A stretch of DNA of 64,000 nt, taken from Flavobacteriaceae bacterium (GTDB lineage: Bacteria > Bacteroidota > Bacteroidia > Flavobacteriales > Flavobacteriaceae). The notes below the pieces were generated by a model. It did no database searches and was not told where the DNA came from. It saw only the letters and a program-made list of their open reading frames with translations. The translations under genes were made by a program, and so were the position numbers. The stretch is from positions 1 to 64,000 of the forward strand of contig CANFNV010000001.1 in assembly GCA_947448525.1 (NCBI GenBank), given 5' to 3'. Below, piece after piece: positions 4,094 to 35,146 of this stretch (within the stretch, counting starts at the first letter, position 1; each line of letters starts with the position of its first letter).

Positions 4094-5287
4094 TTAATCA
4101 ATTAGTATTTTTTTAGTTACTCTTTTATTTGAAGTTTGTAAAACGCCTAAATAAATTCCTTTTGGCAAACTCGAAATTGAAACAGATTCGATTAGCTTAG
4201 CATTTGAAACAGGAAATTTCAAAACTTCTTTTCCCTCAATATTAATAATAGAAAAAGTGTATTCTCTTTCAGTTAAAGAACCCATATTAATATTCAAACT
4301 GTCTTTTGATGGGTTCGGAAAAAAACTAACATTAAAATCCGATTCATTTTTTGGACTTGACAATGTGTTGGCTTGAGAAAAATGTAAAGTTGCACCAATG
4401 GTAGCCTTAGCCACATTATAATTATAAACTGTATCCATATTAATTAAAAAATCGGAGTTGGTATGTTTGTGAGTTGTTTCATTAGTTTCGAAAAAACCAG
4501 TTATGATTTCATCATTGCTTTGAAATGGCATATAATCCGAAGAATAGGCCCTATCTAAAAAAGTATTTAGCGGAGAGTATAATGTTACACAATTCATCAA
4601 CTGAGTTGTCATAGTTGATGATGCAGCATTATTGGTAGATGGATTGGCACTCATATCTCTTTCACAAGTAATTGTGTTATTAGTCATTCCAGCCACACCA
4701 CCAACTTCATCTAAATTAAATACCAATCTAATATTCATCTTGGGATTAGTCCCATTTACTACAGACGAAACATAATGTTGACTTCCGAACAATCCATCTT
4801 CTTCTCCACTAAAATTTATAAATTTAATAGAATACTCTGTTGGGATATTAGCCAACAAACGAGCCGTTTCTAAAATACAAGCGACACCACTTCCGTTATC
4901 ATTTGTTCCAGTTCCTCCTATTGAATCGTAATGTCCGCAAACAATTACATAAATATTTGGATAAAGCGTCCCGATTTTGGTTACAACCAAATTTTTTACA
5001 ACATCTGAAGCTCCTGCATAAGTATATGGATCCTCTTGGATTTGATTTATTGTATACCCATAACTCAAATAGTTACTTTTTAACCAATTCAACGTATTTT
5101 GTAACTGAACGGTTCCTCTTCTTTTCATACCAAATGCCTCAAATTCGGTTAAATTATTTGTAATATTTGTCTGTGAACATTGATTAACCACATCGGCATA
5201 TGCTTGAACAAAATTCTGGCCAAAAGATTGATTAGCAATCGATAATATAAAGAGTAAAAAAAATAATGTTTTCGTATTGAAATTCAT
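4094..5287 (-). CDS. M28 family metallopeptidase with T9SS type A C-terminal sorting domain
   Basis: Signal peptide; 'VIVCGHYDSIGGTGTNDNGSGVACILETARLL' and 'INFSGEEDGLFGSQHY' M28 zinc-ligand motifs; C-terminal 'FFPNPSKDSLNI...LPKGIYLGVL..NKRVTKKILID'. Confidence 0.9.
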   Translation of the reverse strand: MNFNTKTLFFLLFILSIANQSFGQNFVQAYADVVNQCSQTNITNNLTEFEAFGMKRRGTVQLQNTLNWLKSNYLSYGYTINQIQEDPYTYAGASDVVKNLVVTKIGTLYPNIYVIVCGHYDSIGGTGTNDNGSGVACILETARLLANIPTEYSIKFINFSGEEDGLFGSQHYVSSVVNGTNPKMNIRLVFNLDEVGGVAGMTNNTITCERDMSANPSTNNAASSTMTTQLMNCVTLYSPLNTFLDRAYSSDYMPFQSNDEIITGFFETNETTHKHTNSDFLINMDTVYNYNVAKATIGATLHFSQANTLSSPKNESDFNVSFFPNPSKDSLNINMGSLTEREYTFSIINIEGKEVLKFPVSNAKLIESVSISSLPKGIYLGVLQTSNKRVTKKILID

Positions 5288-23474: not shown

Positions 23475-24800
23475 TTAAAGATATTCACCATGTTGAGTAA
23501 TGTCTAAACCAAGCTCTTCTTTATCTTCACTTACTCTTAAAGGAGTGATTTTATTTACAACAAAAAATAAAGCATAGGATACGATAAAAGCAAAAATAGA
23601 TACAAGAACTAATGCTTTTAACTGAATCAAAAACAAAGTGGTATCTCCATATATTAATCCTTGATTTTTACCTACAATTGGATTAACTGATTTTGAAGCA
23701 AAAACTCCAGTTAATACCATTCCAACCATTCCGCCAACGCCATGACAGGCAAATACATCTAAAGCATCATCGACTTTACCTTTAGGGAATTTACTTACAA
23801 CAAGATTACTTATAAAACTTGCAATAAAACCAATTGCTAATGCCGAAGGAATTGTCACAAAACCTGCAGCTGGTGTAATCGCAACTAAGCCAACAACTGC
23901 TCCAATAGAAGCTCCCATTGCAGAAAGTTTGTGTCCTAGTATTTTATCTAGAAATACCCATCCCATAGCCGCAGCCGCAGCCGCAACTGTTGTTGTACCT
24001 ATAGCTTGTGCCGCTAATACGTTAGATCCTAAAGCTGAACCAGCATTAAAACCAAACCAACCAAACCACAATAAACCAGTTCCTAATAATACATAAGTAA
24101 TTCGTGCAGGAGTTGATTTTTGAACTTTCCTTTTTCCTAAGAATATAGCTCCAGCCAATGCAGCCCATCCTGCGCTCATATGGACTACTGTTCCTCCTGC
24201 AAAATCCAAAACGCCCCATCCAAAGAACAACCCATCAGGATGCCAAGTCATGTGACATAATGGAGCATATACAAAAACCATAAATAAAACCATAAATAAT
24301 AAGTAAGCCCAAAAACGAATCCGTTCAGCAAATGCACCCGTTATTAAAGCAGGGGTAATAATTGCAAATTTTGCTTGAAATAAAGCAAAAAGAATAAAAG
24401 GGATTGTAGGCGCTAACTCCCAGGCCGTATTTGCACTTACACCATTAAAAAATAAATTGGAAGAAGGATTGCCAACAAAACCACCTATTGAAGGTCCAAA
24501 ACACAAACCAAATCCAACTACTACCCAAAGTACAGATACGATAACCATAGCCATAAAACTTTGCAATACTGTACTAATGACATTTTTTTTTCCTACCATT
24601 CCTCCGTAAAAGAAACCTAATCCTGGAGTCATGATTAAAACTAAACCTGTAGCCGTAAGCATCCAAGCAGTATCTCCTGTATCTAACTTAAGTGGAACAA
24701 CATGATTGGATAGTATTTTATTTTCAGGAAATAGATAAATTGAAAAAATGGATAACACCAAAATTGTGATTAAAATCACACTTAAAATAATTTTTCTCAT
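23475..24800 (-). CDS. Ammonium transporter (Amt family)
   Basis: 'DTAWMLTATGLVLIMTPGLGFFYGGMVGKKNVISTVLQSF', 'DFAGGTVVHMSAGWAALAGA', 'DVFACHGVGGMVG'. Start placed at MRKIILS. Confidence 0.93.
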   Translation of the reverse strand: MRKIILSVILITILVLSIFSIYLFPENKILSNHVVPLKLDTGDTAWMLTATGLVLIMTPGLGFFYGGMVGKKNVISTVLQSFMAMVIVSVLWVVVGFGLCFGPSIGGFVGNPSSNLFFNGVSANTAWELAPTIPFILFALFQAKFAIITPALITGAFAERIRFWAYLLFMVLFMVFVYAPLCHMTWHPDGLFFGWGVLDFAGGTVVHMSAGWAALAGAIFLGKRKVQKSTPARITYVLLGTGLLWFGWFGFNAGSALGSNVLAAQAIGTTTVAAAAAAMGWVFLDKILGHKLSAMGASIGAVVGLVAITPAAGFVTIPSALAIGFIASFISNLVVSKFPKGKVDDALDVFACHGVGGMVGMVLTGVFASKSVNPIVGKNQGLIYGDTTLFLIQLKALVLVSIFAFIVSYALFFVVNKITPLRVSEDKEELGLDITQHGEYL

Positions 24801-25173
24801 TTTTATACTTAAATTTGGAATAAATATAAAAAAATCAAATAGCACCCCCAATTATAATATAATAAAAAATATATTTTTATTGATTTACTATTATTTACTA
24901 TATAATTTTAGGGGTACTTCAAAAAATAAAATAAATAATATAAATTTAATAATGCAATATGTATTCAAATAAAGAGAAATATTAACAACTAAACAAACTG
25001 ATAAATACTAAATATTAACTTTTGTAAAGCGTTATTTTTTTTATATCATTTATTTAAAAAAAAGTATACTAAATTAGATTTTGAATATTATAAATGAAAC
25101 AAAACTTTTAATCAAGTTGGATTAAAAAAAATAAATAATATTTATTACATTCCATTTGAGTGCACAAAAAATA

Positions 25174-26343
25174 TTATTTTGATTTTCTTCTTACTCGTTC
25201 TGATTTTAATAAATTCAATTCTCTACTAGTTTGTCCAGCAACCGAAGTGTTTTCTTGAGCACGACGAATCAAGTATGGCATCACATCACGAACAGGGCCA
25301 AAAGGGAGGTATTTAGCAACATTATAACCATTTACCGCTAAATTATAACTGATATTATCACTCATTCCATATAATTGTCCAAACCAAATTCTCGGGTCGT
25401 TTTTAGTAATTCCATTAAATACTTGCATTCCCAAAAGTTTATATGAACTTTCTTCATTGTGTGTACCAGCAAAAATTGCCATTTTATCAATATGTTGCAT
25501 CATATACTCAACCGCAGTATTATAATTATCATCTGTTGCTTGTTTAGATGAACATATTGGAGTTTGATATCCGTTTTCTTGAGCGCGTTTGTGTTCTTTT
25601 TCCATATAAGCACCGCGAACTAATTTCATTCCAATATGGAAATCAGCTGCTTTTGCACGTTCATGTAATCCCTTTAAATAATTCATTCTGTCCCAACGAT
25701 ACATTTGTAAGGTGTTGAAAACAATAACTTGTTCTTTGTTGTATTTGCGCATCATTTCTTCTACCAAATCATCAGCAGCATCTTGCATCCAACTTTCTTC
25801 AGCATCAATCAATAGGGCAACATTTTTAGAATGTGCTGTTTTGCAAATGATATCAAAACGTTCTTTAACTCGATTCCATTCCGCTTGTTCAATATCTGAA
25901 AGCTGGAGCTTCTCGCCTATTTTAGTATATAAATCCAATCGACCAATTCCAGTGGGCTTGAATACTGCAAAAGGAATAGCATCTCTTTCTTTAGCAAATT
26001 CGACTGTTTTTAAAGTCATGTCTAAAACAGCATCAAATTGTGATTCATCTTCTTTCCCTTCTACAGAATAATCCAAAACCGATGAAACGCCTTTAGCATA
26101 CATATTATCAACAACTTTCAGACAATCCATTTCATTAATACCTCCGCAAAAGTGGTCAAAAACTGTAGCACGAATCAATCCTTCAACGGGTAAGTGAGCT
26201 TTTAATGCCAAATTAGTCAGTGTTGTTCCTATTCGAACCAACGACTCATTGGAAATCATTTTAAATAAAAAATAAGCTCTATCCAATTCGGAATCACTTT
26301 TTAAACCAAAAGCAACTTCGGTATTGTTGAAAATTGTATCCAT
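25174..26343 (-). CDS. Proline dehydrogenase family protein
   Basis: PRODH barrel motifs 'KLVRGAYMEKEHKRAQENGYQTPI', 'AIFAGTHNEESSYKL', 'FGQLYGMSDNISYNLA'. Confidence 0.9.
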   Translation of the reverse strand: MDTIFNNTEVAFGLKSDSELDRAYFLFKMISNESLVRIGTTLTNLALKAHLPVEGLIRATVFDHFCGGINEMDCLKVVDNMYAKGVSSVLDYSVEGKEDESQFDAVLDMTLKTVEFAKERDAIPFAVFKPTGIGRLDLYTKIGEKLQLSDIEQAEWNRVKERFDIICKTAHSKNVALLIDAEESWMQDAADDLVEEMMRKYNKEQVIVFNTLQMYRWDRMNYLKGLHERAKAADFHIGMKLVRGAYMEKEHKRAQENGYQTPICSSKQATDDNYNTAVEYMMQHIDKMAIFAGTHNEESSYKLLGMQVFNGITKNDPRIWFGQLYGMSDNISYNLAVNGYNVAKYLPFGPVRDVMPYLIRRAQENTSVAGQTSRELNLLKSERVRRKSK

Positions 26344-26391
26344 CGAAACTTTATTAATTATGCAAATATAATTAGAGTTTTAGAATATTTT

Positions 26392-27684
26392 TTATGATTT
26401 CAGCCATAAATTCCTATACTTTTTATCTTTATCATAATCAGCTGCTTGTTTATCGATATTAAAATAACGATTACCTCTTGGGTCATTGCCTACTCCAGCT
26501 AAATAAGCCCAATTCCCCCAATTGCTAGAAACATCATAATCAATAAGTTGTTGTTCAAAATAAGCCGCGCCAAAACGCCAATCGAGTCTCAAATCATTAC
26601 ACAAATAACTCGCGACATTTTGCCTACCGCGATTACTCATAAATCCTGTAAGCTTCAATTCGACCATATTGGCATCTACAAAATTTACTCCAGTCTCACC
26701 ATTTATCCATTTTTGAAGTTCCTGGTTGTTAAGTTTATTAATTGGAATTTCTTTATCTTGAATTCCAGCTTGTTGAAAGAATTTAATATTGTGTTTTTTC
26801 ATCATAAATCTAAAATAATCACGCCATAATAATTCAAAGATCAACCAATAGGTCGATTTATTAGCTCCAAATTGCAATTCATATTTTTTTAGTTCGTCAT
26901 AAATAAATCTTGGCGAAATGCAACCTAAAGCCAACCAAGTCGAAAATTTAGAAGAATAATCGGCACCAACCAAGCCGTTTCGAGTTTCTTTAAAATTTGA
27001 AATGCATTTGAATTCAAAAAAATAATAATTCAATCGTTTTATTGCATGTGTTTCGCCACCTTTAAAAAGTAAAGCAGTTCTAGAATCTATAGGTTTATAT
27101 TCTAAATCTAATTCTTCCAATGTTGGCAATTTTATTACTGGAATTTCGGGTGATTTAATCTGATTTGGTATATCAAATGCCGGTCTAATTAACGCGTCTT
27201 TCTCTGTTTTCTTTCTAAAATTGGAAAATACATCGGGAATATCTTTTATAGAAAAAGGCAAATCCTGGGCATGATATAACGTGCTCGTGCTGTATGTTTT
27301 GAGTTCACATTTTAACTTAAATAATACTTCTCGAAGTTTTGTCTCGGTAAATATTTCTTCATAAGAAACTTCTTTTTTAGAAAAAACTTTAGTTGCCTTG
27401 TACAGTTGAACAATATTTGGAATTTCAATTTCAGGTTTTCCCTTTAAAATCAACAATCCAGAACCTAATTCGCGCAAATTTTTATCCAAATCGATTAATG
27501 ATTCTAATAAAAATTGCGCTCTAAAACTTCCTGTTTTTTTAAATCCAAATTCAGTGGTAATAAATTGAGCTTCATCAAAACAATAGACCGGAATGATTTG
27601 ATCACTTTGTGCAATAGCTTTGATTATTGTTTCGTTATCATTTAATCGCAAATCGGTTTTAAACCAAACAATTGTAGTTCTCAT
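26392..27684 (-). CDS. DASH-type cryptochrome/photolyase
   Basis: N-term 'TTIVWFKTDLRLNDNETIIKAIAQSDQIIPVYCFDE'; 'WLALGCISPRFIYDELKKY'; 'MSNRGRQNVASYLCNDLRLDWRFGAAYFEQQLIDYDVSSNWGNWAYLAGVGNDPR'. Confidence 0.88.
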   Translation of the reverse strand: MRTTIVWFKTDLRLNDNETIIKAIAQSDQIIPVYCFDEAQFITTEFGFKKTGSFRAQFLLESLIDLDKNLRELGSGLLILKGKPEIEIPNIVQLYKATKVFSKKEVSYEEIFTETKLREVLFKLKCELKTYSTSTLYHAQDLPFSIKDIPDVFSNFRKKTEKDALIRPAFDIPNQIKSPEIPVIKLPTLEELDLEYKPIDSRTALLFKGGETHAIKRLNYYFFEFKCISNFKETRNGLVGADYSSKFSTWLALGCISPRFIYDELKKYELQFGANKSTYWLIFELLWRDYFRFMMKKHNIKFFQQAGIQDKEIPINKLNNQELQKWINGETGVNFVDANMVELKLTGFMSNRGRQNVASYLCNDLRLDWRFGAAYFEQQLIDYDVSSNWGNWAYLAGVGNDPRGNRYFNIDKQAADYDKDKKYRNLWLKS

Positions 27685-29216
27685 ATGTCATTTATATTTT
27701 TCAAATAATAATCTGCTTGTTCTAACAAAGCCGATTTGTCTTCAGGTTTCATCTTTCTCCAAACATTATACATCATACCTATTCTAGGGTTTTTACTTAA
27801 TTGATCTTCATTTCTGTCATAAAAGTTCCAATACAAACTATTAAACGGACAGGATTTATCTCCTGTTTTTAATGATTTTTTATAAAAACAACTTCCACAA
27901 TAATGGCTCATTTTATCAATATATGATGCCGAACTCACATACGGTTTGGTGCCAACAATACCACCATCTGCAAACTGACTCATGCCACGAGTATTAGTAA
28001 TTTCAACCCATTCAAATGCATCAATATAAATTCCTAGATACCACGCGTCAATTTCGTCTGGATGGATTCCTGCCAAAAGAGAAAAATTACACGTAATCAT
28101 TAACCGCTGAATGTGATGCGCATAAGCATGATTTAAGGACTGATTTATAGCATCTTTCATGCAATTCATTTTGGTTTTTCCTGTCCAAAACCAATCAGGC
28201 AATTTTTCTTGATTGTTGAAAAAATTCATATTTGCGTATTCCGGCATTTTATTCCAATAAATGCCACGCATGTATTCGCGCCAACCAATTATCTGACGAA
28301 CAAAACCTTCCAATTGGTTGAATTCTATTTCATTAGGCCGTTTGATCCATTCTTCAATGCACCTTTCAATAACTTCTTGAGGCGAAATCATTTTTACATT
28401 CAATGAAAATGAAATGCGAGAATGATACAATGACCATTCATTAGGCATCATTGCATCTTGATAACTTCCAAATAACGGTAAACATTCTGTAGCAAAAAAG
28501 TCTAATAATTCTATAGATTGCGCTCTATTTATAGGCCAAACAAAATTTTTAGCATCAATAATTCCGATAGTTTCAATATCTGTTTTTAAAATTTCTTCAT
28601 AAATAGTTGAAACATCATTATTAAAAACAAAAGGCGCAATTGCTTTATGATTTTTGGGTAATTTTTTTCTGTTTTCCCCGTCATAATTCCATTGTCCCGT
28701 ATACGGTTTATCGCCGTCCATCATAATATTGTGCTTTTTTCTCATGGCTCGATAAAAACTCTCCATCAAATACATTTTCTTACCTTCAAAGAAATCGCCA
28801 AGTTCGTTTCGAGTGGTATAAAAATGTTCTGAATCAACTGCAGCACTAGAAATTGAAATAGCGTTACAAAGTTTTTTCAAATCCAAATCCACTCGATATT
28901 CATCGGGCAATTGGTATTCAAAATGGGTAAAATTATGCTCTGAAATTAAATTTTTAATATTATTTTGAAAGGATTTTAAGTTATTATTATCATTTAAGTA
29001 AATATATATAACTATATGATTTTTAGAAATTAAAATATCATTAAAATAACGCATTGCGGAAAAAATTCCTGTTACTTTTTGAATATGGTGTTTTACATAA
29101 TCGGTTTCGGAACGAATTTCCATCATAACATAAGTAACCGAATCGTCGACAGTTTTAAACCATGAATGATTGCTATTTAATTGATCTCCTAGAATTAATC
29201 GTAACGTTTTTGACAT
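27681..29216 (-). CDS. Cryptochrome/photolyase family protein, iron-sulfur bacterial type (PhrB/FeS-BCP-like)
   Basis: 'LRLILGDQLNSNHSWF' N-term; 'HHIQRLMITCNFSLLAGIHPDEIDAWYLGIYIDAFEWVEITNTRGMSQFADGG'; Cys motif 'MSHYCGSCFYKKSLKTGDKSCPFNSLYW'. 4 nt overlap with the next gene. Confidence 0.9.
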   Translation of the reverse strand: MSKTLRLILGDQLNSNHSWFKTVDDSVTYVMMEIRSETDYVKHHIQKVTGIFSAMRYFNDILISKNHIVIYIYLNDNNNLKSFQNNIKNLISEHNFTHFEYQLPDEYRVDLDLKKLCNAISISSAAVDSEHFYTTRNELGDFFEGKKMYLMESFYRAMRKKHNIMMDGDKPYTGQWNYDGENRKKLPKNHKAIAPFVFNNDVSTIYEEILKTDIETIGIIDAKNFVWPINRAQSIELLDFFATECLPLFGSYQDAMMPNEWSLYHSRISFSLNVKMISPQEVIERCIEEWIKRPNEIEFNQLEGFVRQIIGWREYMRGIYWNKMPEYANMNFFNNQEKLPDWFWTGKTKMNCMKDAINQSLNHAYAHHIQRLMITCNFSLLAGIHPDEIDAWYLGIYIDAFEWVEITNTRGMSQFADGGIVGTKPYVSSASYIDKMSHYCGSCFYKKSLKTGDKSCPFNSLYWNFYDRNEDQLSKNPRIGMMYNVWRKMKPEDKSALLEQADYYLKNINDI

Positions 29217-29264
29217 ATATATTTGAACTATTAAACCAATAAGTTATATTAATTTATTTACTAT

Positions 29265-29402
29265 TCACTTATTCCCTCTGCATTTATCACTACAATATTT
29301 TACTTCATCCCAAGCTTTTTCCCATTTTTTGCGCCAAGAAAATGGTTTCTGGCAAAGAACACAGATCTTACTGGGAAGGTTTTGTTTTTTTACTCCTCTC
29401 AT
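29265..29402 (-). CDS. DUF2256 domain small Cys-rich protein (45 aa)
   Basis: [45 protein letters not shown]. CxxC...CxxxC pattern; 4 nt overlap with the upstream photolyase. Not in the ORF track. Confidence 0.85.
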
Positions 29403-30877
29403 TTTTTTGATTTATTTGGATTAGTTACGTGCTTTTTTAAAATTCGTTTTCCTTCTTCTTTAACATCATCTTTCTTTCTAAAACTCCACACAATATCACT
29501 AGCTTGTTTTCGGGTTTCATCAATATCTACAATAGGAAACGGATAATCTTTCCCAATTTCACAGTTGTAAAATTGTTGTTCTATAGTATTCAATTTCCAA
29601 GGTTCATGAATTAATTCCACTGGTATTTGATCTAATTCGGGTATCCATTTTTTGATGAAAATCCCCTCTGAATCGTGCTCTTCGGAATTTTTAATTGGAT
29701 TATAAATTCTGATGGTATTAATTCCGGTAGTACCCGATTGCATTTGTATCTGCGGGTAATGAATACCGGGTTCATAATCTAAAAATTGTCGCGCTAAAAA
29801 ATGTAATTCGCGCCAATCTTGCCATAAATTGAACGTAAAAAAGGAAACCACCATAGCTCGCATTCTAAAATTGATGTAACCCGTTGTAGCCAAACATCGC
29901 ATACACGCATCCACAATAGGAACTCCCGTTTTACCTTCTTGCCACGCTTTTATATAGGTTTCATTTTTGGGTTTAATCAAAGAATCATAAGCTCGATTTG
30001 CATTTTCAAATTCCATTCGGCATTCGTCTTCAAATTTTTGTATAAAATGACAATGCCAATGCAGTCTTGAGACAAAATTCAATAGCGCTCTTTTGTTTTT
30101 GGAAGTTTCATAATGCTGATTAGTGTATTGATAAATCATTCGCATACTAATATTTCCGTAAGTTAAATAAGGAGATAATCGGCTGCAACCGGTTCGACTT
30201 AAATTTGGTTTTGAAATGTGCTTGCTGTAATTAACGTGACGTTCTTTTACAAAACTATTTAAATAACGCCAAGCCCAATATTCGCCACCTTGTTGGAAGT
30301 TTTTATTGCGGGTTGTAATTACTTCAGGAAGCGAATTTCCTTTTAATTTTGAATACAAATTTGAGTCTAAATTTTCAAATTGAAACGAATTCAATTCAAT
30401 AATTTTAGGTTCGGAACGCATCACTTGCTCCCATCGTTTATCCCAATTGCTTCTGGATTTTAGTTTTCTAACAACACCGTGCATTTGTGATTGGCTCCAG
30501 CGAATTTTATGAAAATCAAAAAAAGATTGCATTGCAACATCTCTATCAAAAGTGATTTTATTTCCAATTTCTTGATGAGAAAAAACCGATTTTATATCAT
30601 ATATTTTTTGAATTTCTTCAAAAACTGTTGCAACTTCACTATTAAAAAAAAAGATTTCACAGGATATTGTCTTCAATTTAGATTGCATTTCTTGGATGGA
30701 TTCATAAATAAACCTCCAATGACGCACATCGGAATCATCATAACTCATTACAGATGGCTCAAAAAAATACACTAATAAAACGGAAACACCCTCTTGTTGC
30801 GCCAAATAAAGTGGTTCGTGATCTGTAAAACGTAAATCACGTTTGAACCAAACAATATTTATAGATTTTTTATTCAA
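29399..30877 (-). CDS. Deoxyribodipyrimidine photolyase/cryptochrome
   Basis: '[39 protein letters not shown]'; '[20 protein letters not shown]'; '[77 protein letters not shown]'. Confidence 0.9.
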
Positions 30878-30879
30878 TT

Positions 30880-31521
30880 TTAAAGTAACGAAGTAATTTC
30901 TTTATCGGGTTTTGCGTAGCTTAATCGGTCTAATTGTATCGTTTTATGATAACTATCTAAACCTGAACAAGTGATGGTATTGGCTTTTTCTAAATCGATA
31001 AATCCATCATCGTGCAAACAATTTTCAGGTATATATATTTGAATAATTTCTCCAATAACTAGTATTGTGTTATTGATTAAAATATCCATTTTGTCTTTAA
31101 ATTCAACACCTAACTGAACATTACATGATGAAACAAAAGGTGCAATAAAATCATCTTTATATTCTGATTTCAAATTAGTTACTTCAAATTCAGAAACTGA
31201 AGAGTTATATCGAGCAGAAGTTTGATGGGCTTGTTTATAAATAGATTCATTGATATGATTTATTGTATAAAACCCTGTTTGAAGTATATTGTGAAGCGTA
31301 TCTCGTTCAGGTGGACTTGGACGAAATACCATTCCTATCAATGGGGGATTAGCTCCAATATGAAAAAAAGAACTGAATATTGCAAGATTTTCATTTCCGT
31401 TTTTATCAGCGGTTCCCACCAAGGCAACGCTTTTAAATCCGCCTAAACTATTAATTAAGTGAACTCGTTTTTGTTTTTCTAATTGCTCGATCTGAATTTT
31501 AGTAATATGTATTTTAGACAT
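30880..31521 (-). CDS. Flavin reductase family protein (FMN-binding split barrel)
   Basis: '[65 protein letters not shown]'. Confidence 0.88.
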
Positions 31522-31533
31522 TATCAATCGAAA

Positions 31534-31932
31534 TTATAATAAATGAATCCACTTTTTTTCACTGTTTAATTTGAACGTTCCAATGTGCTCTTTGTTCCAT
31601 TCGTTGGGCGCAATTAATGAAAGGGAATTAGTTCCATCTTCGTTTGTATACAAATGATAGATTTCACCAATTACGGGTTCAAATGAGAATTTAGAATTAT
31701 AAACCAATTCGTTCCATTCAAATTCTTTTATCAAATTTTCATATTGAATTTTAAGCTCATTAAACTTATTTTCAAACTCTTTATTGACATTCGTAATTCC
31801 CCTACTTTTCCATGAAATTACATCATCAACTCTAATTACAGGCGCGCCAACACTAGTTGAATAGGACAATGAACTGGCGTTATACCCATCTTTCTCAGTA
31901 AAAACAACGTTATCTGGTTTTTTACTTTCCAT
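31534..31932 (-). CDS. DUF2452 domain-containing protein
   Basis: 'NPDNVVFTEKDG'-type N-terminus; 'FEPVIGEIYHLYTNEDGTNSLSLIAPNEW'. Confidence 0.7.
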   Translation of the reverse strand: MESKKPDNVVFTEKDGYNASSLSYSTSVGAPVIRVDDVISWKSRGITNVNKEFENKFNELKIQYENLIKEFEWNELVYNSKFSFEPVIGEIYHLYTNEDGTNSLSLIAPNEWNKEHIGTFKLNSEKKWIHLL

Positions 31933-31934
31933 TT

Positions 31935-32261
31935 TTAGCGTTTAGAAATTTTATTATTCGAAATGGAACGTTGTAAATTGCATTTGAATCGATCAATTCC
32001 TTCCACTCGTTTAGAAACATGTTTTGTTTTGCAACTTTCAACCCGTTCGCGCCACAATTTGTAACTGCTAAATTTCAATTCTTTTTTCATTAAAGCTTTT
32101 ACTTCAGCTTCGCTTAATCCAAATTGAAATTTTATGGCATCAAATGGAGTTCGGTCTTCCCAAGCCATCTCAATGATTCTATCAATATGAATATCGGATA
32201 GTTTTTCTTTTTCTACGGGTGCAATAATGGATTTCAAAATATATTGTTTAATATTTATCAT
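31935..32261 (-). CDS. TIGR03643 family protein
   Basis: 'IDRIIEMAWEDRTPFDAIKFQFGLSEAEVKALMKKELKFSSYKLWRERV' is characteristic. Confidence 0.8.
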   Translation of the reverse strand: MINIKQYILKSIIAPVEKEKLSDIHIDRIIEMAWEDRTPFDAIKFQFGLSEAEVKALMKKELKFSSYKLWRERVESCKTKHVSKRVEGIDRFKCNLQRSISNNKISKR

Positions 32262-32358
32262 AATTAATTAAACAAAAGTAACGATTTTTAATCATTAATT
32301 CCGATTTAAAATAAAAAAATAAGTTAAATTGGAGTAAAATGAGATGAAATAATATCCT

Positions 32359-32366
32359 TATTTTTG
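32359..32366 (+). promoter_or_regulatory. Candidate -7 element TATTTTTG for aroB
   Basis: TAnnTTTG match 18 nt upstream of ATG 32385. The track's TTG start at 32364 falls inside it. Confidence 0.55.
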
Positions 32367-32384
32367 CAGAATATAACAAACAAT

Positions 32385-33446
32385 ATGCAATCAATTGAAG
32401 CAAACGGATATTCTATATATTTTAATAAAAAAGGATATGAAGCAATCAACCAAATACTAATTGATAATAAATACTCCACTATTTTTATTTTAGTAGACGA
32501 ACATACCAACGACTTTTGCTTGCCTAAATTTCTTTCAAATTTAGCTACTGAAATTGCCATTGAAATTATAGAAATTGAATCTGGTGAAGATGTTAAAAAC
32601 ATTACAACTTGCGTCGAAATATGGTCAATTTTATCGGAACTTGGTGCTGATAGAAAAAGTGTAATAATCAATCTGGGCGGGGGCGTAATTACTGATATTG
32701 GCGGATTTGTAGCTTCTACGTTTAAAAGAGGGATTGATTTTATTAATATTCCAACTACTTTATTAGGAATGGTTGATGCGTCAATTGGCGGTAAAAATGG
32801 TGTTGATTTAGGGAATTTAAAAAATCAAATCGGAATTATTAATGTACCGAAATTATTACTAATAGACCCTTCCTTTTTAGAAACATTATCGCAAAAAGAA
32901 ATGCGTTCTGGTTTGGCAGAAATGCTAAAACACGGTTTGATTTACGACAAAAAATATTGGAAACAATTTTTAGTTTTATCGAATATTGATTTTGCCGATT
33001 TTGATGCATTAATTTATCGTTCAATAGCAATTAAAAATGAAATAGTAAAACAAGATCCAACCGAAAACGGAATTAGAAAAGCATTAAATTTTGGCCACAC
33101 TTTGGGTCATGCCATAGAAAGTCATTTTTTAAAATCTGCAACCCCTTTACTTCATGGTGAAGCCATTGCTATTGGAATGATTTTAGAAAGTTATATTTCT
33201 AAAGAAAAAGGATTGTTATCGATTGATGAATTTCATCAAATAAAATATACTTTAACTGATATTTTTGAAAAACATAATTTTACAAAAAACGACATAGAAT
33301 TGATTCAAGATTTACTCATTCACGATAAAAAAAATGAGTATGGAAAAGTGCAATTTGCATTGATTAATGGTATAGGAAAAATAATTATCAATCAATCAGT
33401 TGAAAATCAATTAATTATAAAAAGTTTTGAGGAATATAAATCTTAA
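32385..33446 (+). CDS. aroB: 3-dehydroquinate synthase
   Basis: 'INLGGGVITDIGGFVASTFKRGIDFINIPTTLLGMVDASIGGKNGVDLGNLKNQIG', 'ALNFGHTLGHAIESH..PLLHGEAIAIGMILES'. Confidence 0.95.
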   Translation: MQSIEANGYSIYFNKKGYEAINQILIDNKYSTIFILVDEHTNDFCLPKFLSNLATEIAIEIIEIESGEDVKNITTCVEIWSILSELGADRKSVIINLGGGVITDIGGFVASTFKRGIDFINIPTTLLGMVDASIGGKNGVDLGNLKNQIGIINVPKLLLIDPSFLETLSQKEMRSGLAEMLKHGLIYDKKYWKQFLVLSNIDFADFDALIYRSIAIKNEIVKQDPTENGIRKALNFGHTLGHAIESHFLKSATPLLHGEAIAIGMILESYISKEKGLLSIDEFHQIKYTLTDIFEKHNFTKNDIELIQDLLIHDKKNEYGKVQFALINGIGKIIINQSVENQLIIKSFEEYKS

Positions 33447-33466
33447 TATTTTTTTTATAATTAATT

Positions 33467-33498
33467 TTGCAATTCGCTTATTTTATTTTTTACATTTG
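33467..33498 (+). promoter_or_regulatory. Candidate promoter TTG-N21-TACATTTG for the arginine decarboxylase leader
   Basis: TTG 33467-33469, TACATTTG 33491-33498. Confidence 0.5.
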
Positions 33499-33503
33499 CG
33501 GGG

Positions 33504-33683
33504 ATGATTAATAACAATAACACTAATACGAATAGCACTTTCACACTAAAAACCAATACTGGTTTTCAAGTTTTGTGTGTTGTTTTTTTGACATCAATTA
33601 GAACTATTTTAGGGCTTTTTTTAGAGATTATTAAATCGGAAACTGAAAAATTACCCATTGTGTATGCAAATATTAGAGTTTGA
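33504..33683 (+). CDS. Candidate 59 aa leader ORF upstream of arginine decarboxylase
   Basis: ATG..TGA: MINNNNTNTNSTFTLKTNTGFQVLCVVFLTSIRTILGLFLEIIKSETEKLPIVYANIRV. One residue short of the shortest ORF in the track. May instead be non-coding leader. Confidence 0.35.
   Translation: MINNNNTNTNSTFTLKTNTGFQVLCVVFLTSIRTILGLFLEIIKSETEKLPIVYANIRV
33542..33589 (+). promoter_or_regulatory. Nested hairpin plus T-tract in the speA-like leader (possible attenuator)
   Basis: CACAC-(TA)-AAAACCA-ATAC-TGGTTTT-(CAAGTTTT)-GTGTG, then TTGTTTTTTT. Confidence 0.45.
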
Positions 33684-33736
33684 ATTAAAGATTAATTTAA
33701 CTTCATTATTAATCCTTTTAAACTTTGCAAATAAAA

Positions 33737-35146
33737 ATGAACACAAAATACTTCGACTTAATCAACCAGACCTATTACTTTCCTCAAGAAGAATTTACTT
33801 TAAACAAAGAAAATGCGCTTCAATTTCATAACATTGATTTAATAAAATTAGTTGAACAATATGGAACTCCTTTAAAATTCACCTATTTACCTCAAATTTC
33901 CAACAACATTAAAAGAGCCAAAAACTGGTTTAGAAATGCTATGGAAAAAAACAAATATGAAGGAAAATATTATTATTGTTATTGCACCAAAAGCTCCCAT
34001 TTTGAATACATTATGAATGAAGCTTTTAAAAACAACATTCACATTGAAACTTCTTCGGCGTTCGACATAAATATTGTTGAAAATTTATTGGAAAACGGAA
34101 AAATAAATAAAAGTACTTATATTATTTGTAATGGTTTTAAAAGAGATCAATATATTACAAACATTGCGCGTTTGATTAACAAAGGACATAAAAATACCAT
34201 TCCAATCATTGATAATTATGAAGAATTGGATTTGCTTCAAGCCCAAATAAAAAGTAAATTTAAAATTGGCATTCGAATTGCAGCCGAAGAAGAACCAAAA
34301 TTTGAATTTTATACCTCCCGCTTGGGAATCGGATATAAAAACATTGTGGCATTTTACAAAAAACAAATTCAAGATAATGATAATCTAGAATTGAAAATGT
34401 TGCATTTTTTCATCAATACTGGAATTAACGATAATGCCTATTATTGGAATGAATTGGTAAAATGTATTAAAGTATATATTGCACTTAAAAAAGAGTGTCC
34501 AACATTAGATGGATTGAACATTGGAGGTGGTTTTCCTATCAAAAATTCATTAGCTTTTGAATATGATTACCAATACATGATTGACGAAATTATCAATCAA
34601 ATTAAAATTGCCTGTGACGAAGCCGAAGTAGATGTGCCTAATATTTTTACCGAATTTGGATCGTTTACTGTGGGAGAATCAGGTGGCGCTATTTATCAAG
34701 TTTTGTATCAAAAACAGCAAAACGATAGAGAAGCTTGGAATATGATTGATTCCTCATTCATTACTACTTTGCCCGACACTTGGGCAATTAACAAACGATT
34801 TATTATGTTGGCTATAAACCGTTGGAATGACACTTACGAAAGAGTTTTGTTGGGTGGAATGACTTGTGATAGTGATGACTATTACAACTCTGAACAAAAT
34901 ATGAACGCCATATATTTACCAAAATACAATAAAGAAAAACCGCTATATATAGGATTTTTCAATACTGGTGCTTATCAAGAAACCATTGGAGGTTATGGAG
35001 GACTGCACCACTGTTTGATACCGCAACCCAAACATATATTGATTGACAAAGATGAAAATGGCATCATTGCTACCGAAGTTTTCTCTGAACAACAAACGGC
35101 AGAAGATGTTTTGAAAATTTTAGGATATTCAAAAAAAGAGAAGTGA
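33737..35146 (+). CDS. speA: Arginine decarboxylase (PLP, alanine-racemase-fold)
   Basis: 'YYYCYCTKSSHFEYIMNEAFKNNIHIETSSAFDINIVENLL', 'LDGLNIGGGFPI', 'EFGSFTVGESGGAIYQVLYQKQ'. Start at ATG 33737 rather than the track's TTG 33725. Confidence 0.85.
   Translation: MNTKYFDLINQTYYFPQEEFTLNKENALQFHNIDLIKLVEQYGTPLKFTYLPQISNNIKRAKNWFRNAMEKNKYEGKYYYCYCTKSSHFEYIMNEAFKNNIHIETSSAFDINIVENLLENGKINKSTYIICNGFKRDQYITNIARLINKGHKNTIPIIDNYEELDLLQAQIKSKFKIGIRIAAEEEPKFEFYTSRLGIGYKNIVAFYKKQIQDNDNLELKMLHFFINTGINDNAYYWNELVKCIKVYIALKKECPTLDGLNIGGGFPIKNSLAFEYDYQYMIDEIINQIKIACDEAEVDVPNIFTEFGSFTVGESGGAIYQVLYQKQQNDREAWNMIDSSFITTLPDTWAINKRFIMLAINRWNDTYERVLLGGMTCDSDDYYNSEQNMNAIYLPKYNKEKPLYIGFFNTGAYQETIGGYGGLHHCLIPQPKHILIDKDENGIIATEVFSEQQTAEDVLKILGYSKKEK

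Follow-up and report, generated by a model that had tools for sequence, protein, structure and literature searches.

A conserved inverted repeat points to a probable CarH-controlled light regulon, including a seven-gene photolyase operon, in Flavobacteriia

A seven-gene photolyase operon in a Flavobacteriaceae bacterium is preceded by a perfect 30-bp inverted repeat, TGTTTAA-N16-TTAAACA, and this candidate operator is shared by several unlinked light-related operons, as expected for members of a LitR-type regulon. We propose, with a probability of about 0.7, that the operon is part of a scattered flavobacterial light regulon repressed by CarH. The inverted repeat was found by aligning the regions upstream of TIGR03643 in relatives, where it is conserved. 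One exact copy is present in the window (the whole 64-kb stretch of DNA that was analyzed) and four in the genome, located before the seven-gene operon, TetR-ABC1, folE, and an SRPBCC-SDR-CPD photolyase locus. Neither the operator nor a candidate photosensor was part of the initial annotation, which had assigned the operon a role in the light response; this role is supported by inference from the data below. The features of the region are as follows.

32273..32280, minus strand: putative Bacteroidota -7 element TACTTTTG (TAnnTTTG), overlapping the left arm of the operator
32245..32274: candidate operator, perfect inverted repeat TGTTTAA-N16-TTAAACA, 30 bp
31935..32237, minus strand: TIGR03643/DUF2805 small basic protein (PF10985 116 bits, TIGR03643 110 bits)
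31534..31932, minus strand: DUF2452 protein (PF10504 41 bits, cut-off 25)
30880..31521, minus strand: flavin reductase-like split-barrel protein (PF01613, Flavin_Reduct, 64 bits; 3fge_A 227 bits)
29399..30877, minus strand: P3, a photolyase/cryptochrome whose clade stands apart and whose active site is altered (PF00875 and PF03441)
29265..29402, minus strand: DUF2256 protein, 45 aa (PF10013 80 bits)
27681..29216, minus strand: FeS-type (6-4) photolyase, predicted, PhrB/CryB group (PF04244, DPRP, 242 bits)
26392..27684, minus strand: DASH-type cryptochrome (TIGR02765 551 bits, cut-off 317)

All seven open reading frames of the initial annotation are present on the minus strand in the order it gave (TIGR03643 - DUF2452 - flavin reductase - P3 - DUF2256 - FeS 6-4 photolyase - cry-DASH), and Pfam and NCBIfam profile scores bear out the families it named, except for the class of the middle photolyase, P3. 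The successive junctions (2 nt, about 6-12 nt, 2 nt, a 4-nt overlap, 48 nt, and a 4-nt overlap) are compatible with one transcript, in support of the single transcription unit that had been suggested. Two start codons were reconsidered. The TIGR03643 start previously placed at 32261, to which the open frame extends, falls within the operator; alignment with relatives indicates that TTG 32237 is the likely start (ATG in the relative L126). For the flavin reductase, ATG 31521 is the probable start codon, the first in-frame start being at 31527. Upstream of the operon lies the divergent aroB. A proline dehydrogenase gene starts 48 nt past the DASH gene (window position 26343); we rejected it as an eighth operon gene given that it has its own -7-like element, TATATTTG, and is not a neighbor in the other Flavobacterium copies examined. 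Read-through into this gene is possible but not needed. No Rfam elements were detected in 24000-34000, an E. coli-type promoter scan returned fewer promoter-like sites than in shuffled sequence, and an E. coli-type scan found terminators at chance level.

The full seven-gene order is repeated in other Flavobacterium genomes (L124, L125, L127, L128, and L139), in some cases followed by an epimerase-DUF2867 gene, and thus the arrangement is not due to chance. Elsewhere in the class, the same genes are found in shuffled form, as in the order SRPBCC-SDR-CPD photolyase-DUF2256-DASH-FeS-P3-TIGR03643 of L154, L175, and L199. The lack of a recurrent neighborhood had been named beforehand as grounds for abandoning the proposed light-response island; instead, the neighborhood recurs across genomes.

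The operator is strongly enriched near light genes. In 2.3 Mb of light-module loci, which were chosen for their light genes such that the count reflects enrichment there and not specificity, 51 sites with spacers of 8-24 were found compared to 0.8 expected from first-order Markov shuffles. The spacer is exactly 16 in 45 of these 51 sites. A genome-wide scan detected 98 sites, distributed over 36 of 198 genomes, versus 12 for a reversed control pattern. Nearly all of the sites are in Flavobacteriia, and they are nearly absent outside this class even though the genes are present there; thus, other groups must use another form of control. Upstream of TIGR03643, a TAnTTTTG element is retained in most of the aligned relatives, TAnnTTTG being the Bacteroidota -7 consensus, and no clear -33 element was seen upstream of the operon. 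However, a strict TAnnTTTG box abuts an operator arm at only 32 of 106 sites, such that promoter overlap is not general.

Among 54 sites retrieved from the genome-wide list that have a gene nearby, 22 are located before core light genes, 12 before other module genes, 11 before fasciclins, and 9 before others. The first two groups, 34 sites in all, lead into genes of the photolyase module, carotenoid genes, rhodopsin, blh, queD-folE, carH, ECF sigma genes, or TetR-ABC1. The same palindrome is found at the promoters of rhodopsin genes (L249, L251, L258, and L078), which are accompanied by blh (retinal synthesis) or crtY genes at some of these loci. Fasciclin-domain genes follow the palindrome at L242, L246, L248, L255, L256, L278, L282, L284, L289, L291, and other loci, a recurrence that suggests light-controlled surface proteins.

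Among the operator targets is the gene for a MerR-B12 (CarH/LitR-like) protein itself. This gene is present in 34 of the 36 motif genomes (Fisher 4e-25) and, within the class, the presence of CarH is associated with that of the motif (table 33/1/9/6, p=0.002, for 49 genomes with shared ancestry ignored). A site is located no more than 330 bp from carH at 13 of 14 places compared, a descriptive figure rather than a test, as these are places where site and carH are close on one contig. Two genomes, G012 and G095, have kept TetR-ABC1-DUF2256-DASH-FeS-TIGR03643 without CarH, and no site could be found at their operon loci even with 2 mismatches. The operator is associated with CarH rather than with TetR. 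The candidate CarH of the genome studied here (G000:C16, L299), which is followed by crtI, has the hallmarks of a class I CarH/LitR photoreceptor (MerR HTH, B12-binding domains, Wx9EH, and [DE]xHxxG) in the form of a MerR domain (PF13411), a B12-binding_2 domain (PF02607), and the motifs Wx9EH and ExHxxG. The second B12 domain (PF02310) had no Pfam match in this protein, and the motifs were seen by eye. Just upstream of this carH is an imperfect site with a spacer of 17 and 2 mismatches.

Two other explanations of the palindrome deserve mention. The ABC1-linked TetR-family protein could bind it, in which case the regulon would answer redox or membrane stress and not adenosylcobalamin photolysis. 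In favor of this, many genomes, among them the one studied here, have the site immediately before TetR-ABC1, and palindromes of similar length are bound by TetR proteins. However, the TetR gene is found in 24 of the 36 motif genomes and is absent from the other 12, its association with the motif at the class level is not significant (table 24/10/7/8, p=0.10), and G012 and G095 possess TetR and the same operon with no site within 2 mismatches, making this assignment improbable. We give even less credence to a reading in which the palindrome serves an ECF sigma factor, as a conserved part of its promoter or as an RNA stem, instead of being a repressor operator. While an ECF sigma gene heads several crt operons behind the site, and one arm overlaps the -7 box in TIGR03643 operons, few sites have the box on a constant side, palindromes are not a feature of ECF promoters, there is no Rfam match in 24000-34000, and two conserved, symmetric arms held 16 bp apart suit binding by a protein dimer.

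A further explanation, which we regard as the least probable of the three, is that the genes are together by chance or vertical inheritance, and that the small proteins have no joint function. The shuffled neighborhoods and the confinement of DUF2452 linkage to Flavobacterium and close relatives would be compatible with this. Against it stands very strong co-occurrence among 198 genomes of the phylum, in tests that treat genomes as independent despite their shared ancestry: 58 genomes have both the FeS photolyase (65 genomes) and DUF2256 (63 genomes; 6e-36), and 48 have both TIGR03643 (53 genomes) and the FeS photolyase (1e-25). The FeS photolyase is present in 27 of 27 P3 genomes and DUF2256 in 26 of 27, and the flavin reductase also co-occurs with the FeS photolyase across the 198 genomes; many of the co-occurring pairs are found at separate loci rather than adjacent. 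The same gene pairs are moreover found on Pseudomonadota plasmids, with P3-DUF2256 in Tritonibacter and Salinivibrio, P3-flavin reductase in Vibrio fortis, and TIGR03643 and DUF2256-FeS in Acinetobacter.

In the CarH model that we favor, where light induction, CarH binding, repression, and the activity of each protein are all deduced from sequence, a CarH/LitR-type MerR-B12 repressor would bind TGTTTAA-N16-TTAAACA over the promoter in the dark and block transcription, and adenosylcobalamin photolysis would release the repressor in the light. The seven-gene operon would be co-expressed with folE and with the operons of TetR-ABC1 and of the class I CPD photolyase. The FeS enzyme would repair 6-4 photoproducts and the DASH protein would repair lesions in single-stranded DNA, and P3 may act on some lesion or state that its active site does not reveal. 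Reduced flavin is probably supplied or maintained by the flavin reductase. The probable role of DUF2256 is that of a small zinc-binding accessory to P3, the FeS enzyme, or both, and that of TIGR03643 is to act as a small basic accessory that binds nucleic acid. The cofactor-loading, antenna, or redox roles that the initial annotation suggested for the small proteins are conjectural.

Regulation of this type has precedents. The Pseudomonas LitR proteins (PplR/PmlR) repress phrB, SDR, cryB, and folE in the dark via T(G/A)TACA-N12-TGTA(C/T)A (PMC9758184). The proposed flavobacterial regulon resembles this system in that a MerR-type light repressor is placed over a photolyase, an SDR protein, an FeS cryptochrome (CryB), and folE, and in that the site is two-armed with TGT...ACA ends (PMC9758184). 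In contrast, and as a point against the model, the flavobacterial operator, TGTTTAA-N16-TTAAACA, differs in sequence from the Pseudomonas LitR consensus TGTACA-N12-TGTACA (PMC9758184) and has a longer spacing. The flavobacterial regulator also retains AdoCbl motifs reportedly missing from class II LitRs. The flavobacterial targets also extend beyond those of Pseudomonas LitR to P3, DUF2256, TIGR03643, DUF2452, rhodopsin/blh, crt, and fasciclin genes. The UV-B-inducible operon of Synechococcus PCC 7335 likewise has more than one photolyase gene and overlapping frames, but its two photolyases are of other subgroups, small partner genes are missing, and no operator of the TGTTTAA-N16-TTAAACA kind was reported (PMC9649867). 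A photolyase gene-proximity cluster was described for proteorhodopsin-bearing marine Flavobacteriia in a 2018 ISME J paper, in which we noted no operator, regulator, or analysis of the P3 active site (PMC5932025). In Vibrio cholerae, the blue-light response is governed by MerR and ChrR (PMC5241685). For Chryseobacterium, carotenoids were found to be light induced with no car/lit genes detected, and the regulator was asked for (PMC7064467); the CarH candidate is present elsewhere in the class. Thus the LitR-type principle is known, while the flavobacterial operator and target list appear to be new within the open-access literature. If the model is correct, the light regulon of one major class of aquatic bacteria could be predicted from a 30-bp sequence alone. 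This regulon would tie DNA repair to carotenoids, rhodopsin and retinal synthesis, and pterin/folate supply, with CarH as the named candidate photosensor.

P3, which the initial annotation took to be class-I-like, does not belong with the class I photolyases. Its clade stands apart with support of 100/100 in a tree that has long branches and from which class III, 6-4, and plant groups were left out, and no NCBIfam subgroup model scored P3 above its cut-off. The AF2 model (pLDDT 91) is about equally similar to class III, 6-4, DASH, and class I structures (TM about 0.8, 18-25% identity). In an alignment with E. coli PhrB, numbered with the initial Met and hence one higher than in the literature, the clade has E274 replaced by R, N341 by F, M345 by A, N378 by H, W382 by I/L/F/V, and W384 by M, with W277 retained. 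Class I CPD photolyases are characterized by E274, N341, M345, N378, and W382, residues connected with CPD repair and flavin photoreduction; P3 and its relatives in Vibrio, Tritonibacter, and Deinococcus have R, F, A, H, and I/L in their place. By comparison, the class I CPD-type enzyme encoded at another locus of the genome (G000:C11), where it shares a copy of the operator with SRPBCC and SDR genes, retains E, N, M, N, and W at these positions. P3 thus represents a clade of photolyases in which the active site departs from the known repair residues, a pattern that appears to be new as far as the open-access literature shows. It is tempting to go further and see a new chemistry, with His placed at the flavin-N5 position and Arg replacing the CPD-binding Glu, that acts on a lesion outside the known classes and has DUF2256 as a dedicated zinc partner, though we consider this doubtful. 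A P3 domain fused to a UDG-superfamily domain (PF03167) is encoded on a Deinococcus radiophilus plasmid (L307:6998-9280); the fusion is annotated solely as a uracil-DNA glycosylase, and the same annotation is found under P3 matches on other Deinococcus plasmids. Were the new-chemistry reading true, this fusion would suggest a role in the repair of damaged bases, perhaps cytosine-derived photoproducts. A second candidate family, "P3b", proved to be DASH by residues and tree.

The other two photolyases were assigned to their subgroups as before, and the idea of three different subgroups is supported in part, with P3 outside class I. The FeS enzyme has the DPRP domain and the Cys motif noted earlier, with four cluster-type cysteines (C352, C440, C443, and C456) that we assign to the FeS cluster from the known family. 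Its closest solved relatives are PDB 7ykn/8a1h (549 bits) and PhrB 4dja (413 bits), and it is a predicted 6-4 photolyase of the PhrB/CryB group. The DASH protein, whose closest solved relatives are PDB 6kii (479 bits) and 1np7, scores above the TIGR02765 cut-off and has M345 replaced by Q and N378 retained. The flavin reductase matches a putative flavin reductase, PDB 3fge, a structural-genomics entry, across 201 residues (227 bits).

Three families of unknown function, DUF2256, TIGR03643, and DUF2452, are now placed in a defined setting. DUF2256 and TIGR03643 are linked to photolyases across phyla by co-occurrence and neighborhood. DUF2452 is usually not linked to photolyase genes, and lone DUF2452 genes in two other genomes (G068 and G142; L114 and L244) have their own operator copy upstream; thus, as judged from these sequences, DUF2452 belongs to the regulon without being an obligate partner. 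The DUF2256 protein has a zinc-finger-like CxxC...CxxxC pattern, and searches of DUF2256 and DUF2452 against PDB sequences gave nothing credible. The AF2 model of TIGR03643 is helical (pLDDT 78). A recognizable HTH was considered for this protein and rejected, as the model has no significant match among PDB folds and the profile matched no PDB sequence. We found no paper naming TIGR03643 in the open-access literature. A divergent TIGR03643 paralogue of 91 aa is encoded outside the light module (G000:C7, about 4670-4945, L275) and is also present in other genomes of the genus. Weak TIGR03643 matches are in tandem with the main copy at L148, L150, L153, L162, and L184, and short photolyase-like proteins with the FAD domain only adjoin TIGR03643 at L157, L176, L183, L186, L196, and the c7 cluster loci.
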